A stretch of DNA of 5,031 bases from a bacterium (lineage in GTDB: Bacteria; ARS69), in contig JALGZO010000634.1 of NCBI GenBank assembly GCA_025774865.1, positions 1 to 5,031 on the forward strand. The letters are read 5' to 3'. Each line of letters starts with the position of its first letter. Positions within the stretch are counted from its first letter, which is position 1. Of this stretch, positions 1 through 5,031 are shown one piece after another. The position numbers were made by a program, and so were the translations under genes. Under the pieces are notes generated by a model that made no database searches, was not told the origin of the DNA, and was given only the letters and a program-made list of their open reading frames with translations.

Positions 1-465
1 GAGCGGGCCGCAGGAATTCTGGATTGCATCGCGCGCGACGGGGGCACGGATGCGGTGCTCCGGCTCATCGCCGCCGCGTCGTCGGGAGTGGCGGGGATCG
101 GCGCCACCTCGATCTGGGCGCTCCGCGCCGATGACGAGGCCTACGTCGAGGTTGCGAGAGCGAACGGAGGCGCGCCGGCCGACGAGCCGAGGGAGCCCCG
201 GTTGCCGGTGGAGGCGAGGTGCGCGCGGACGCTCCACGATTGGGCGTCGGGGCTGCCGCGCTGGAAGACGTGCTCGTGGATTCCGTCCGCCACGATCGAA
301 CGCCTTCGACCGGATCCCGGCGACAGAGTCCTGGTCATGCTCGAAGGTCGCGAGGGCCAGCTCCCTCTCGGCTTCGTGCTCGCGGAAGTGAACGCCCGCC
401 CGCCCGAGGGGCCACACGTCGAGGATCTCCAACGCTGGGCCGCTCTCGGGCGCCTCGCGCTCGAG
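1..465 (+). other. N-terminal GAF-like sensor region (5' truncated)
   Basis: Residues 1-155 of the kinase show a GAF-type pattern: an amphipathic helix (AAGILDCIARDGG), then a strand pair around SIWALRADDEAYVEVAR. A further strand pair surrounds RVLVMLEG and LGFVLAEVN, and a closing helix (LQRWAALGRLALEN) runs into the signalling coiled coil. No ligand-binding residue can be assigned. The upstream part of the protein is outside the window and may hold more sensor domains or membrane helices. The assignment rests on pattern and on position before a HisKA domain. A divergent PAS-like fold is the alternative. Confidence 0.55.
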
Positions 466-2382
466 AACCGTTCGGACGACAACCGGAGCCTGCGAGATCT
501 CGAGCGGCTTCGTGAGGAGCAAGAACGGCTCGCGGAGCTTCACCGAATGAAGTCACAGTTCATCGCGGCCGTGTCGCATGAGCTCCGGACGCCACTGACG
601 TCGATCACCGCATACGCGGAGACGCTCCGCTCGCGAAACATCACGATCGAAGATGAGCTCCGGGGCAGATTCCTCCGAGTCATTCACGAAGAGAGCCGGC
701 GCCTGACTCGAATCGTCGACGGGATTCTGGATCTCGCGACGATGGAAGCCGGCCGGGTCCGCCTGTCGTGCCGCACGATCGACCTGAGGGAAGTGATCGA
801 GGGTGCTCTCGACGTGATTCGCCCGATCGCGAAAGAGAAGAACGTCTCGGTGACGAGTCCACCGCTGGAATCCATTCAGGTGCACGCGGATCCCGATCTG
901 TTGAAACAGCTGACGGTCAACCTGCTCGACAACGCGGTGAGACTGAGCCCCAAGGGCGGTTCGGTGGGTCTGGAGCTGGAGGGCGAAGATACCACCGTAC
1001 GCTTCGCCGTCCGCGACGACGGCCCCGGCATACCCGCCGACAAACTCGACACGATCTTCGACCGTTTCTATCGGATGGACAGCCCGGGTGCCCGTCGCCC
1101 CGCCGGCTCCGGATTGGGGCTCGCCATCTGCAAGAGCATCGTGGCGTGGCACGACGGTCGCATCTGGGCCGAGAGCGAAGACGGGCGGGGCGCGCGCTTC
1201 GTGGTGTCTCTGCCGAAGATCCGGGCGACGAGCCGCTCCCGCGCGCAGAAACCGATCCTCAAGGAGCACGAGCCGCAGGGCCATCGGATTCCCGAGCTCC
1301 TGGTCGAGATGATCTCGGAAGTGATGTCCGCACGGACTGTCTCGCTCATGCTTCTGGATGAAACCGGAGGCGAGCTCTTCATCCAGGCCGCGATGGGTTT
1401 GCCGGACGAGGCGATCCGCGACGCGCGGGTCGCCGTCGGCGATCGGATCGCGGGGCGGGTGGCGAAATCGGGAGCGACGTTGTTCATCCCGGACCTCGAC
1501 GCCGACGATCGATTCGACCCTGGCCCTTCCGACCGCTACGACACTCGGTCACTGATCTCGGTGCCGGTGCGGCTGAACGAGGACACGATCGGGGTCATCA
1601 ACGTCACGAACAAGACATCGGCCCGTTCGTTCAATGAGCATGATCGGCGGTTGTTGGACATGGTGTCGCAACGAGTGGCGCTCGTTCTCGGGAAGCTCCG
1701 CGAGTCGGGAGGCTCTCAGAAGCAGCTGGATCAAATGGAAAGTGCGATCCGCGGCGTCATCGATGTGCGGCGCCACTACTACTCGAACCGCGAGGAGTAC
1801 TCGAGAATCATCCGCGACGTTTGTCGCGCACTCGAGATCGACGAAGAACATGCGGCCCACATTCACTACGCGTCGATCTTGCGCGACGTCGGCATGACGC
1901 TGCTGCCGGAGGGCGTCTACAAGAAGCCCACCGAGCTCTCGGACGAGGATCGCGAGAAGATCCGGCGGCATCCGGAGGAAGGGGCGAAAGTCCTTCGTCC
2001 GATCGAGTTTCTGACCGACGTATTCGACATCATTCTCTCTCATCACGAGGAACCGGACGGCACGGGATATCCGCGCGGCGTCAAGGGAAACGGAATCCCG
2101 ATCGGGGCCAGGATCCTCGCGGTCGTCGACGCGTATCACTCGATGCGGTCCGATCGACCCTATCGGGAACCGGTCAGTCCGCGCGAGGCGATCGACGAAA
2201 TACGGAGGAACGCCGGCGAGCAATTCGACGAGCGGGTGGTCGATGCGCTCGTCGAGGTGCTGGGCGAGAACGAATCGATGGAGCCGAAGAGAGGCACGGA
2301 AGACCCGGAGAGCGCGAACGGAGCCCGCGAGATCGATCGCTCCGAAGAGGAAGGCCACTTGAAGCACGAGGGGATGGTATGA
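1..2382 (+). CDS. Multi-domain sensor histidine kinase: GAF - HisKA - HATPase - GAF - HD-GYP (5' partial)
   Basis: The frame is open from base 1 to the TGA at 2380-2382, giving 793 residues. The GTG at 55 is not taken as the start, because domain-like sequence continues upstream of it. Residues are numbered from base 1. Residues 1-155 are GAF-like. Residues 156-186 form a charged coiled coil. The HisKA H-box is SHELRTP with phospho-accepting His193, and HELRT also fits the ExxT phosphatase motif. The HATPase domain has the N-box (Asn311), DGPGIP (340-345), an F-box (IFDRF, from 352) and GSGLGLAI (369-376). A second GAF spans about 430-566, and an HD-GYP domain about 580-755. The tail is charged. 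No membrane segment is visible, so the visible part looks cytoplasmic. The expected role is to sense a ligand or redox cue through GAF, autophosphorylate, and pass phosphate to the receiver encoded next, with which it overlaps by 4 bases. The HD-GYP domain lacks two metal ligands (Asn596, Arg628), so cyclic-di-GMP hydrolysis is doubtful. Kinase assignment is firm; signal and output are unknown. Confidence 0.93.
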   Translation, partial: ERAAGILDCIARDGGTDAVLRLIAAASSGVAGIGATSIWALRADDEAYVEVARANGGAPADEPREPRLPVEARCARTLHDWASGLPRWKTCSWIPSATIERLRPDPGDRVLVMLEGREGQLPLGFVLAEVNARPPEGPHVEDLQRWAALGRLALENRSDDNRSLRDLERLREEQERLAELHRMKSQFIAAVSHELRTPLTSITAYAETLRSRNITIEDELRGRFLRVIHEESRRLTRIVDGILDLATMEAGRVRLSCRTIDLREVIEGALDVIRPIAKEKNVSVTSPPLESIQVHADPDLLKQLTVNLLDNAVRLSPKGGSVGLELEGEDTTVRFAVRDDGPGIPADKLDTIFDRFYRMDSPGARRPAGSGLGLAICKSIVAWHDGRIWAESEDGRGARFVVSLPKIRATSRSRAQKPILKEHEPQGHRIPELLVEMISEVMSARTVSLMLLDETGGELFIQAAMGLPDEAIRDARVAVGDRIAGRVAKSGATLFIPDLDADDRFDPGPSDRYDTRSLISVPVRLNEDTIGVINVTNKTSARSFNEHDRRLLDMVSQRVALVLGKLRESGGSQKQLDQMESAIRGVIDVRRHYYSNREEYSRIIRDVCRALEIDEEHAAHIHYASILRDVGMTLLPEGVYKKPTELSDEDREKIRRHPEEGAKVLRPIEFLTDVFDIILSHHEEPDGTGYPRGVKGNGIPIGARILAVVDAYHSMRSDRPYREPVSPREAIDEIRRNAGEQFDERVVDALVEVLGENESMEPKRGTEDPESANGAREIDRSEEEGHLKHEGMV
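547..1221 (+). other. Histidine kinase core (HisKA + HATPase_c domains)
   Basis: Residues about 183-407 contain every box of a class I kinase: the H-box with His193 (codon 577-579), N-box NLLDNA with Asn311, G1 box DGPGIP, F-box IFDRFYRMD and G2 box GSGLGLAI. The spacing is that of PhoR-like kinases and no catalytic residue is missing. The Glu and Thr of HELRT are those associated with phosphatase activity toward the cognate receiver in HisKA kinases. Autokinase and phosphatase activities are therefore both expected. Confidence 0.95.
1288..1698 (+). other. Second GAF domain, between the kinase and HD-GYP domains
   Basis: Residues about 430-566 follow the GAF pattern closely: SLMLLDE, LFIQAAMGLP, a RIAGRVAKSG helix, TLFIPDLDADDRF, SLISVPV and TIGVINVTNK, with the last helix beginning NEHDRRLLDMV. 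The segment NK-x5-F-x3-D (Asn537, Lys538, Phe544, Asp548) resembles the NKxnFx3DE motif of cyclic-nucleotide-binding GAF domains, but the last acidic residue is Arg. Many bacterial GAF domains share this partial pattern, so it does not establish a ligand. The position suggests regulation of the following HD-GYP domain, or coupling between it and the kinase. Confidence 0.85.
1738..2265 (+). other. HD-GYP domain with degenerate HD metal site
   Basis: Residues about 580-755 match the HD-GYP cyclic-di-GMP phosphodiesterase fold. Visible elements are KKPTELSDEDREKIRRHPEEGAKVL (matching the usual KPG.L...E...HP..G..iL), HHEEPDGTGYPRGVKG (His681, His682, GYP 689-691), IPIGARILAVVDAYHSM (Asp710) and SDRPYRE, ending with GEQFDERVVDAL. 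The expected first-helix His is Asn596. The LHDIGK motif reads LRDVGM, so the HD histidine is Arg628 while Asp629 is kept. The retained ligands are Asp629, His657, His681, His682 and Asp710. Known family members need the full set for a di- or tri-metal centre, so this copy is probably inactive or altered, and may act as a binding or interaction module. Confidence 0.85.
2368..2373 (+). promoter_or_regulatory. Ribosome binding site of the receiver gene, inside the kinase 3' end
   Basis: GAGGGG lies 5 bases upstream of the ATG at 2379 and within the last codons of the kinase gene. It decides the receiver start: the nearby ATG at 2374 reads Met-Val-stop in the kinase frame and cannot start the receiver. 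Together with the ATGA overlap it indicates translational coupling. Confidence 0.7.
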
Positions 2383-2762
2383 GCAAGGGGAAGATCCTCG
2401 TCGTCGACGACGAGAACTACATTCTGCACATTCTGGACTTCAGTCTCGGGGCGGAAGGCTACGAGGTGATCACGGCGGAGGATGGTGAGGAAGCCGTTCG
2501 CAAGACGAGGGAAGAGCGACCCGATCTGGTCGTTCTCGACGTCATGATGCCGAAGATGGACGGTTTCGAGGCTTGCAAGACCATCAAGCAGGACGCCGAG
2601 CTCAGCGGCACTCCGGTGATTCTGCTGTCGGCGAAGGCCCGCGACATCGATCAGAAGCAGGGCTACGAGGCTGGAGCCGACGACTACATCACGAAGCCGT
2701 TCAGCCCCGGCCGGCTCGTAGACCGTGTCCACGGATTGCTGAAGACGAACGCCTCCGGATAG
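2379..2762 (+). CDS. Stand-alone CheY-like response regulator receiver
   Basis: This is a 127-residue single receiver domain with no output domain. Key residues are present: the acidic pair Asp10/Asp11 (VVDDE), phospho-acceptor Asp54 (VVLDVMMPKMDGFE), the switch Ser84 (LLSAK), aromatic Tyr103 (DDYITKP) and Lys107. The end of the protein follows directly after the last helix of the fold, so it is complete, not a truncated PhoB- or NtrC-type regulator. The ATG overlaps the upstream stop as ATGA and is preceded by GAGGGG, so it is co-translated with the kinase and is its likely partner. The sequence resembles receivers of the PhoB/PleD kind more than chemotaxis CheY, for example in the MPKMDGFE and GADDYITKPF blocks. 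It could act as an allosteric partner, pass phosphate to a phosphotransfer protein, or control the HD-GYP domain of the kinase protein. The downstream target is unknown. Confidence 0.96.
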   Translation: MSKGKILVVDDENYILHILDFSLGAEGYEVITAEDGEEAVRKTREERPDLVVLDVMMPKMDGFEACKTIKQDAELSGTPVILLSAKARDIDQKQGYEAGADDYITKPFSPGRLVDRVHGLLKTNASG

Positions 2763-2866: not shown

Positions 2867-5031
2867 ATGCCACGAGCTGACGCGATCGGCCGGAGTGTCC
2901 TGCGCCGAGAGGGTGTCGGGAAGCTGACGGGCGACGCGGTATACGTCGACGACCTGCCGGCCGCCGGCGTGTGGTTCGGTGGGACCGTTCGATCGACCGA
3001 ACCTCACGCGCGGATCCTCGATATCAAGCGGGACCCCTCCTTTCCCTGGGGCGACGTCGCCGTGGTCACGGCGGCGGATATTCCGGGTGAGAACGTCGTC
3101 TCGTTGATCGAAGACGACCAGCCGGCACTCGCCGGAGCGACGATCCGACACGCGGAAGAAGCGGTCGCGCTCGTGGCGGGACCGGACCGTGAGCTCGTGG
3201 AGCGGGCGGTGCGGGCGATCGTGGTCGAGACGGAGGCGCGCCCCGCCATCCTCGACATCGACGACGCGCTCTCCTCCGAGATCGTCCTCCGCGAACCGGA
3301 CAACGTCTTCAAGCGGATCGACATCGGGAAGGGAGACGCCGCCGCGGCGCTCCAGGCGGCGGACATCGTCGTGGAGGGCGAGTACACGTTCGGGTCGCAA
3401 GAGCATGTCTACATCGAGCCGCAGGGGATGCAGGCGGAGTGGACCGATGACGGCGTCGTCATTCGTGGCTCGCTGCAGTGCCCCTATTACGTGGTGAAGG
3501 GAATCGCTCGCCTGCTGCAGGTCGAGCCCGGCGAGGTCCGCGTCGTGCAGCACGCGACGGGCGGCGGATTCGGCGGCAAGGAAGAGTATCCGTCGATGAT
3601 CGCGGCGCACGCGGCGCTGCTCGCGCGGAAGGTGGGGCGGCCGGTGCGGATCGTCTACGACCGGGTCGAGGACATGCGGGCCACGACAAAGCGCCATCCG
3701 GGGCGCGTACGTCATCGGACCGGATTGACGGAGGACGGACGGATCGTCGCGCAGGACGTGGACATCGTCTTCGACGGTGGCGCGTATTGCACGCTGAGCC
3801 CCGTGGTGCTGTCGCGCGGCGCGATCCACGCGGCCGGTCCGTACGACGTGGAGAACGTCCGGGTTCTGGCGCGGACGGTCGCGACGAACTTGCCGCCCTT
3901 CGGCGCGTTTCGTGGCTTCGGCGCGCCACAGACCGTGTTCGCCCTGGAGGCGCACCTGGACGAGTGCGCGAGCCGGGTCGGAATGGAACCGTTGGAGCTG
4001 CGGCGGAAGAACGCGCTTCGCAAGAACGGCGTGCTCGCAGTCGGCCAGAACATGGGGGACGACGTCTCGGTCGTCGAGGTGCTGGATCGTGCGGTCGAGG
4101 AGTCGCGGTATCGAGAGCGTCGCGCGGAATTCGAGATGTGGAACGCGGAGGCGGAGCGTGCGGCGCCCGACGCGCCGCCCACGTTCCGGCGGCGCGGCAT
4201 CGGGCTCGCGCTGTTCCACCACGGTGCGGGCTTCACTGGGAGCGGCGAGGTGGTTCTCGCCTCGGAGGCCGGGCTTCGGGGCAATCCCGACGGCACCGTG
4301 ACGGTGCTGTCGGCCCAGACCGAGATGGGCCAGGGCACGCGGACGATTCTCGCGCAGACGGCGGCGGAAGGTCTCGGCGTCGATCCGGAGATGGTCATGA
4401 CGGAGGACCCCGATACCGCCGTGATGCCGAACTCCGGTCCGACGGTCGCGTCGCGCACCAGCATGGTGATCGGCGGCCTCCTGATCCGAGCGGGAAGGAA
4501 GCTCCGCGAGAAGGTCGAGGCGGCCGCGGGCCGCGCGCTGGCCGACGAGGCCGGGTTTCGCGAAGAAGTCGCGAAACAGGCGGCCACGGGGACGTTGGAA
4601 GTGCGCGTGAAGTTCGAGCCGGTTCCCGGTGTCGAGTGGGACGACGAGCAATACCGTGGCGACGCTTACGCGACGTACGCATGGGCGTGCTACGTGACCG
4701 CGCTCGAAGTGGACACGCTCACCGGAGAGGTCGAGGTCATCGACGTGACGGCGGTCCAGGAGGTCGGTCGCGTGCTGAATCCGGTGCTCGCCGCCGGCCA
4801 GATCGAGGGCGGTGTCGCGCAGGGACTCGGCTGGGCCCTCCTCGAGGACGTGGTCTGGGAAGGCGGCCGCATGAAGAACCCCACGATGACCGACTACACC
4901 GTCCCGACGGCTATGGACACGCCGCCGATCCGGACCATCTTCCTCGAGCATCCCCACGCGCGGGCTCCGCACGGCGCGAAGGGGATCGGCGAGCTGCCGA
5001 TGGACGGACCCGCTCCCGCCGTCGTCAACGC
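2867..5031 (+). CDS. Xanthine dehydrogenase-family molybdopterin-binding subunit (3' partial)
   Basis: The frame is open to the window end, giving 721 residues; from the family's usual C-terminus I estimate a few tens are missing. This is the large Mo-cofactor subunit of a molybdenum hydroxylase, which inserts water-derived oxygen into purines or related N-heterocycles and passes electrons to FeS and FAD partners. The start at 2867 gives the family N-terminus (IGRSV.R.EG..KLTGDAVYVDD), although no Shine-Dalgarno is visible. An N-terminal hammerhead domain (about 17-125) precedes two Mo-cofactor domains. Motifs are Gln204 (SLQCP), GGGFGGKE (232-239), Arg317, AFRGFGAPQ (347-355), QTEMGQGT (484-491), PTVASR (525-530), GQIEGGVAQGLG (644-655) and GAKGIGE with catalytic Glu709. 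Glu239 and Arg317 match the substrate-orienting pair of xanthine dehydrogenase, and the CO-dehydrogenase active-site loop (AYRCSFR) is absent. Symbols vary between organisms (xdhA, xdhB, pucD), so none is given. Partner subunits are not in the window. Confidence 0.93.
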   Translation, partial: MPRADAIGRSVLRREGVGKLTGDAVYVDDLPAAGVWFGGTVRSTEPHARILDIKRDPSFPWGDVAVVTAADIPGENVVSLIEDDQPALAGATIRHAEEAVALVAGPDRELVERAVRAIVVETEARPAILDIDDALSSEIVLREPDNVFKRIDIGKGDAAAALQAADIVVEGEYTFGSQEHVYIEPQGMQAEWTDDGVVIRGSLQCPYYVVKGIARLLQVEPGEVRVVQHATGGGFGGKEEYPSMIAAHAALLARKVGRPVRIVYDRVEDMRATTKRHPGRVRHRTGLTEDGRIVAQDVDIVFDGGAYCTLSPVVLSRGAIHAAGPYDVENVRVLARTVATNLPPFGAFRGFGAPQTVFALEAHLDECASRVGMEPLELRRKNALRKNGVLAVGQNMGDDVSVVEVLDRAVEESRYRERRAEFEMWNAEAERAAPDAPPTFRRRGIGLALFHHGAGFTGSGEVVLASEAGLRGNPDGTVTVLSAQTEMGQGTRTILAQTAAEGLGVDPEMVMTEDPDTAVMPNSGPTVASRTSMVIGGLLIRAGRKLREKVEAAAGRALADEAGFREEVAKQAATGTLEVRVKFEPVPGVEWDDEQYRGDAYATYAWACYVTALEVDTLTGEVEVIDVTAVQEVGRVLNPVLAAGQIEGGVAQGLGWALLEDVVWEGGRMKNPTMTDYTVPTAMDTPPIRTIFLEHPHARAPHGAKGIGELPMDGPAPAVVN

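Follow-up and report, generated by a model that had tools for sequence, protein, structure and literature searches.

A degenerate HD-GYP domain fused to a histidine kinase as a candidate cyclic-di-GMP receptor in four bacterial phyla

The window analysed here is a 5,031-nucleotide stretch of DNA that makes up an entire contig (JALGZO010000634.1, C638 in our numbering) of a 4.7 Mb assembly in 785 contigs (GCA_025774865.1). It encodes a histidine kinase with a C-terminal GAF domain and a degenerate HD-GYP domain (1..2382, + strand, the frame open at the 5′ end). We found that the HD-GYP domain has lost the catalytic side of its active site and has kept the GYP side, and that the same pattern recurs in kinases of the same architecture in four phyla. 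We lean, with moderate confidence, towards reading the domain as a non-hydrolysing cyclic-di-GMP (c-di-GMP) receptor module that regulates the kinase.

Residues lost and kept in the HD-GYP domain

The HD-GYP domain (Pfam HD_5, 1e-39; 136.5 bits against a cut-off of 27.2) spans residues 591-746 (1771..2238); this and all other features of the kinase gene lie on the + strand. Family columns are referred to by the residue numbers of the active phosphodiesterase PmGH (PMC4159591). The window kinase lacks three features of active phosphodiesterases, namely the first-helix His, the HD dyad (Arg628-Asp629) and the Asp183/Lys225 pair (Arg591 and Met632). Arg591 (1771..1773) replaces the catalytic Asp183, and His189 of the first helix is lost at Asn596/Arg597 (1786..1791; Asn596 is AAC, 1786-1788), where the loop is one residue shorter. 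The motif RDVGM (1882..1896) has Arg628 (CGC, 1882-1884) in place of His221 and Met632 (ATG, 1894-1896) in place of the catalytic Lys225, with Asp629 retained. His713 stands where PmGH has the structural Asp308, which bonds to His189 and Arg192 (PMC4159591).

The residues of the GYP side are retained, and they are close to invariant in an alignment of 146 HD-GYP domains of the family. They comprise His657 (1969..1971; His250 of PmGH; 144/146), His681-His682 (2041..2046; His276/277; 143/146 and 145/146), the GYP motif at residues 689-691 (2065..2073; G 146/146, Y 139/146, P 146/146) and Asp710 (2128..2130; Asp305; 145/146), and Asp222 is retained in 144 of the 146. The signature HHExxDGxGYP is present as HHEEPDGTGYP, with Ile699 as the distal Ile. 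Downstream lies RPYR (Arg719, Tyr721 and Arg722; 2155..2166), equivalent to the ligand contacts R314/K317 of PmGH and R650/Y652/R653 of DvhD from Desulfovibrio vulgaris (PDB 9RBZ/9RC0, PMC13090378). Across the family the buried metal-ligand His and Asp residues are conserved at 98-100% and the RPYR contact residues at 86-95%.

A sequence-only reading of the window had reported the change of LHDIGK to LRDVGM beside retained Asp629, His657, HH, GYP and Asp710, and its frame, coordinates and residues all proved correct. Its claim that the N-terminal half of the metal site is lost also stood, although its list was incomplete, the equivalents of Asp183, Lys225 and Asp308 being gone too. It had placed the lost first-helix His on Asn596: the loss holds under every placement, whether Asn596 (counting back from the helix), Arg597 or a gap (alignments), and with the shorter loop the exact position is uncertain.

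The almost unbroken retention of Asp222, His250, His276/277 and Asp305, and of His221 in one of the two paralogue clades described below (clade A), would fit a domain that has stayed a hydrolase, whether its metal site has been rebuilt, holds a single metal or serves another substrate. We regard this as very unlikely. Alanine mutants of PmGH at H189, H221, D183 and K225 each had their activity essentially abolished (PMC4159591), and all four positions are changed in the window kinase. Around the first helix, the family as a whole conserves no residue that could stand in as a metal ligand. His592 was considered for this role and not adopted, as its conservation is limited to the five orthologues of the window's phylum and does not extend to the other phyla. 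The earlier proposal that the domain is not an ordinary phosphodiesterase is thus well supported by the PmGH mutants and by the loss across families in four phyla.

Conservation across four phyla

The four further genomes of the window's phylum included in the analysis each carry one orthologue (49-58% identity). The same architecture (E <= 1e-60) occurs in a second phylum in 71 of 80 genomes, most often as a tandem pair, in 5 of 8 genomes of a third and in 32 of 47 genomes of a fourth. Across a spread of 386 genomes, full-length matches were confined to these phyla; in one other genome, G187, the match covered the kinase-GAF part, and the remaining matches covered one part only. This distribution rules out an isolated pseudodomain in a single genome, and the residue loss seen in the window is the edge of a large, conserved family.

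The first-helix His is missing in 143 of the 146 aligned domains, the exceptions (L112, L159 and L200) having a poorly aligned loop. Lys225 is kept in none of the 146, being replaced by Met or Leu, and Asp183 is kept in one. The HD-His column reads His in 78 domains, Tyr in 61 and Arg in 6. Homologues with both His residues, which would have spoken against the earlier reading, are essentially absent: the one case among the 146 is L159, with its poorly aligned loop and without Lys225. As an unselected control we took 21 other HD-GYP rows from the five genomes of the window's phylum (two of which appear to be one protein), and 20 of these keep the first His, the HD and the Lys. Against this background, the absence of the first-helix His from all five orthologues is not due to chance. 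The 18 rows used as canonical references in the alignments were chosen by eye and serve to locate columns, not to measure how often residues are lost.

The interpretation given in the sequence-only reading is, as a whole, partly supported, and two of its details fared less well. Asn596 is not common to homologues of this architecture, the position being N, S or R among the five orthologues, which rules it out as a specific conserved substitution. Arg628 is shared by four of the five; the fifth has His, and the other phyla mostly have Tyr or His. The codons of Arg628 in the four species (CGC, CGC, CGG and CGC), together with the linked losses that they have in common, rule out a sequencing error, as had been argued before.

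The C-terminal half of the HD domain is 54-69% identical to the orthologues and is conserved like the HATPase and GAF domains. In the fourth phylum, L183 and L184 carry HD-GYP domains that have decayed further, with part of the HH lost in addition to the HD motif and Asp. Elsewhere, a separate HD-GYP domain of a sister genome (L062, G002:C255) has lost the first His and has HG in place of HD. A rival reading is that of a structural relic, a domain that only holds the dimer together or helps the kinase to fold and binds no ligand. The stepwise decay seen in the family would suit a relic, as His221 is lost in most paralogues of the second clade (clade B) and, in L183 and L184, part of the HH and the Asp have gone as well. 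Against it, ligand and pocket residues are almost completely conserved in all four phyla, and we consider a relic quite unlikely.

An intact kinase with a predicted ligand pocket

The window kinase is an intact histidine kinase with the domain order HisKA-HATPase-GAF-HD-GYP. HisKA (Pfam, residues 183-251, 547..753) carries the phospho-accepting His in the H-box SHELRTPL, a His present in 144 of 146 aligned relatives. HATPase_c (residues 297-406, 889..1218) has intact N, G1 and G2 boxes (NLLDNA, DDGPGIP and GSGLGLAI), and the GAF domain (residues 433-563, 1297..1689) lies between the kinase part and the HD-GYP domain. The rest of the kinase gene sits on another contig of the same genome (G000:C156), which overlaps the start of the window by 25 bp.

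An AlphaFold2 model of residues 560-757, built with six sequences, reached a predicted local distance difference test score (pLDDT) of 83.6 and a predicted template modelling score (pTM) of 0.83. Its best structural matches, in comparisons that included Foldseek, were c-di-GMP-bound DvhD (Z 17.0), PA4781 (16.6) and PmGH (16.1), which lie within 1 of each other and are tied; the predicted fold alone does not separate a receptor from an enzyme. By alignment, 8 of the 9 named positions of the DvhD canonical site are identical or similar in the window kinase (Y523/Y593, L577/L646, K582/R651, Y621/Y690, M646/M715, R650/R719, Y652/Y721 and R653/R722). Arg651 was dropped as a diagnostic receptor residue, as Arg is found there in some canonical domains too.

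Gene neighbourhood and a possible docking partner

The kinase gene is followed by a single-domain response regulator (REC; 2379..2762, + strand) whose ATG overlaps the kinase stop (ATGA), and then by the large subunit of a xanthine-dehydrogenase-like molybdenum hydroxylase (2867-5031), truncated by the end of the contig. Upstream, C156 holds tsaD and, before the kinase, a response regulator with a GGDEF-type domain. Loci of the first two phyla that extend far enough usually have the order tsaD, REC-GGDEF, (small kinase), kinase A, (REC), kinase B, REC, priA, where brackets mark optional genes, and the REC-GGDEF-type gene is the upstream neighbour of the kinase in most of them. Single-kinase versions of the cluster occur in the window's phylum. 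The xanthine-dehydrogenase-like gene of the source genome lies after REC, where relatives often have priA, and priA is within reach downstream in two sister genomes. In two phyla (loci L074-L077 and L108-L166) the signalling cluster is thus flanked by two housekeeping genes, tsaD and priA.

The upstream proteins form an unusual, conserved cyclase-like family. All 53 aligned GGDEF-type proteins (L072:526-1650, - strand, G000:C156, and 52 relatives) have the motif GGDDF, in most cases together with NPLTGxxGN, and in none of the 53 was an RxxD I-site seen ahead of it. Judged from these motifs, the cyclase activity of the REC-GGDDF proteins is uncertain.

The neighbourhood brings in the main rival explanation, in which the GYP face docks the GGDDF domain of the adjacent REC-GGDDF protein, much as in RpfG, and c-di-GMP binding is not needed. 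In both phyla for which neighbourhoods were analysed, the REC-GGDDF gene is conserved beside the kinase, its GGDDF motif is invariant, and the GYP motif of RpfG is reported to be required for GGDEF interaction and dispensable for phosphodiesterase activity (PMC4159591). Docking would leave unexplained the conservation of the buried metal ligands and of RPYR, and the GYP Tyr of PmGH points into the pocket, not outward (PMC4159591). Sequence cannot decide between c-di-GMP binding and partner docking, the two roles that had been suggested for the domain; the retained contact residues favour binding, and we consider docking alone unlikely.

Proposed mechanism and known systems

In the mechanism that we favour, a soluble histidine kinase would use its HD-GYP domain to sense a ligand without hydrolysing it. 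The domain has lost residues of the catalytic side (those of the first-helix His, the HD His and D183/K225) and kept those predicted to hold a GYP-side metal and to grip c-di-GMP. Binding of c-di-GMP would most likely change how the HD-GYP/GAF stalk is arranged in the dimer, and with it kinase activity or partner choice. The kinase would pass its phosphate to the REC whose gene overlaps the end of the kinase gene, with the REC-GGDDF protein from upstream as a further possible recipient.

Two precedents support such a receptor. PmGH with G-site iron only held c-di-GMP uncut, D222 and E185 having bridging roles in that enzyme (PMC4159591). DvhD has still fewer of the metal ligands, yet it binds c-di-GMP without hydrolysing it, and its stalk helices move about 10 angstroms apart (PMC13090378). 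Because of these precedents and the 8 of 9 retained pocket positions, c-di-GMP sensing by the kinase is the most likely reading.

Several observations weigh on the other side. DvhD Glu668, a base contact, has no equivalent in the window kinase. Active enzymes also have most of the DvhD pocket positions; keeping them is therefore an ancestral trait and by itself no proof of a receptor role. Among the tandem copies of the second phylum, the B paralogues often have Gly at R314, and two fourth-phylum proteins have decayed further, so ligand binding may not be universal in the family. D222, H250, H276 and H277 are presumably the G-site ligands, an assignment that draws in part on general knowledge of di-iron HD proteins. 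Finally, in the c-di-GMP-binding kinase SgmT of Myxococcus xanthus, c-di-GMP altered location, not phosphorylation (PMC3509222).

DvhD, the best structural match in a tie with PA4781 and PmGH, is a membrane dCache-PAS-HD-GYP switch in which HD and HH are lost entirely, whereas the window kinase keeps HH, His657 and Asp629 and has its HD-GYP domain fused to a histidine kinase. SgmT follows a similar logic, in that a degenerate c-di-GMP domain serves the kinase as its receptor, and its authors present it as the first case of a kinase shown to act as a receptor for c-di-GMP (PMC3509222); it differs in being a hybrid kinase with a GGDEF domain and an I-site. PA2572 of Pseudomonas aeruginosa (PMC3411652) likewise has a non-canonical HD motif (YN-GYP), shows no detectable c-di-GMP degradation and is functional in vivo, but is a REC-YN-GYP response regulator and no kinase. 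Bd1817 of Bdellovibrio bacteriovorus (PDB 3TM8), an inactive HD-GYP-like protein, is the reverse of the window kinase in that it keeps a binuclear iron centre and lacks the GYP Tyr. The active phosphodiesterases PmGH and PA4781 share the fold, the GYP loop and the HHExxDGxGYP signature, and unlike the window kinase they keep the first-helix His, the HD and the catalytic Asp/Lys.

Evolution of the paralogues

A quick tree of a subset of 58 proteins, with residues 586-634 left out and the root not inferred, resolved two paralogue clades, A and B, each with members from more than one phylum (97% support in the Shimodaira-Hasegawa-like approximate likelihood ratio test, SH-aLRT). The window kinase falls in clade B, with the Tyr-Asp copies of the second phylum and proteins of the third. 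Because the first His and Lys225 are missing in both clades, their loss probably predates the A/B duplication, an order that is our interpretation of an unrooted tree. The HD-His would have changed later and repeatedly, to Tyr, to Arg in the window's phylum and to Arg again in the fourth phylum (L208).

We tentatively propose that the HD-GYP domain of the A/B ancestor lost its catalytic side before the duplication and became a c-di-GMP-sensing kinase input, probably with a single GYP-side metal and with feedback from the neighbouring cyclase-like protein, within an undescribed ancient cluster (REC-GGDDF, one or two kinases and REC, commonly flanked by tsaD and priA). Literature searches found no description of this kinase architecture, which does not prove that there is none.

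Implications

Degenerate second-messenger domains that act as sensors are a known category, of which the window family would be a variant. GGDEF and EAL domains that serve as receptors are already well known; for an HD-GYP receptor, this analysis found a c-di-GMP-bound structure in one case, DvhD, published in 2026. The family offers a natural series of active-site states, in which the HD His is present or replaced by Tyr or Arg and the catalytic Lys is never present, and makes it testable whether an HD-GYP domain with GYP-side ligands only binds metal and c-di-GMP and gates a kinase. If the proposed reading is true, these proteins would form a widespread class of HD-GYP receptors fused directly to histidine kinases.
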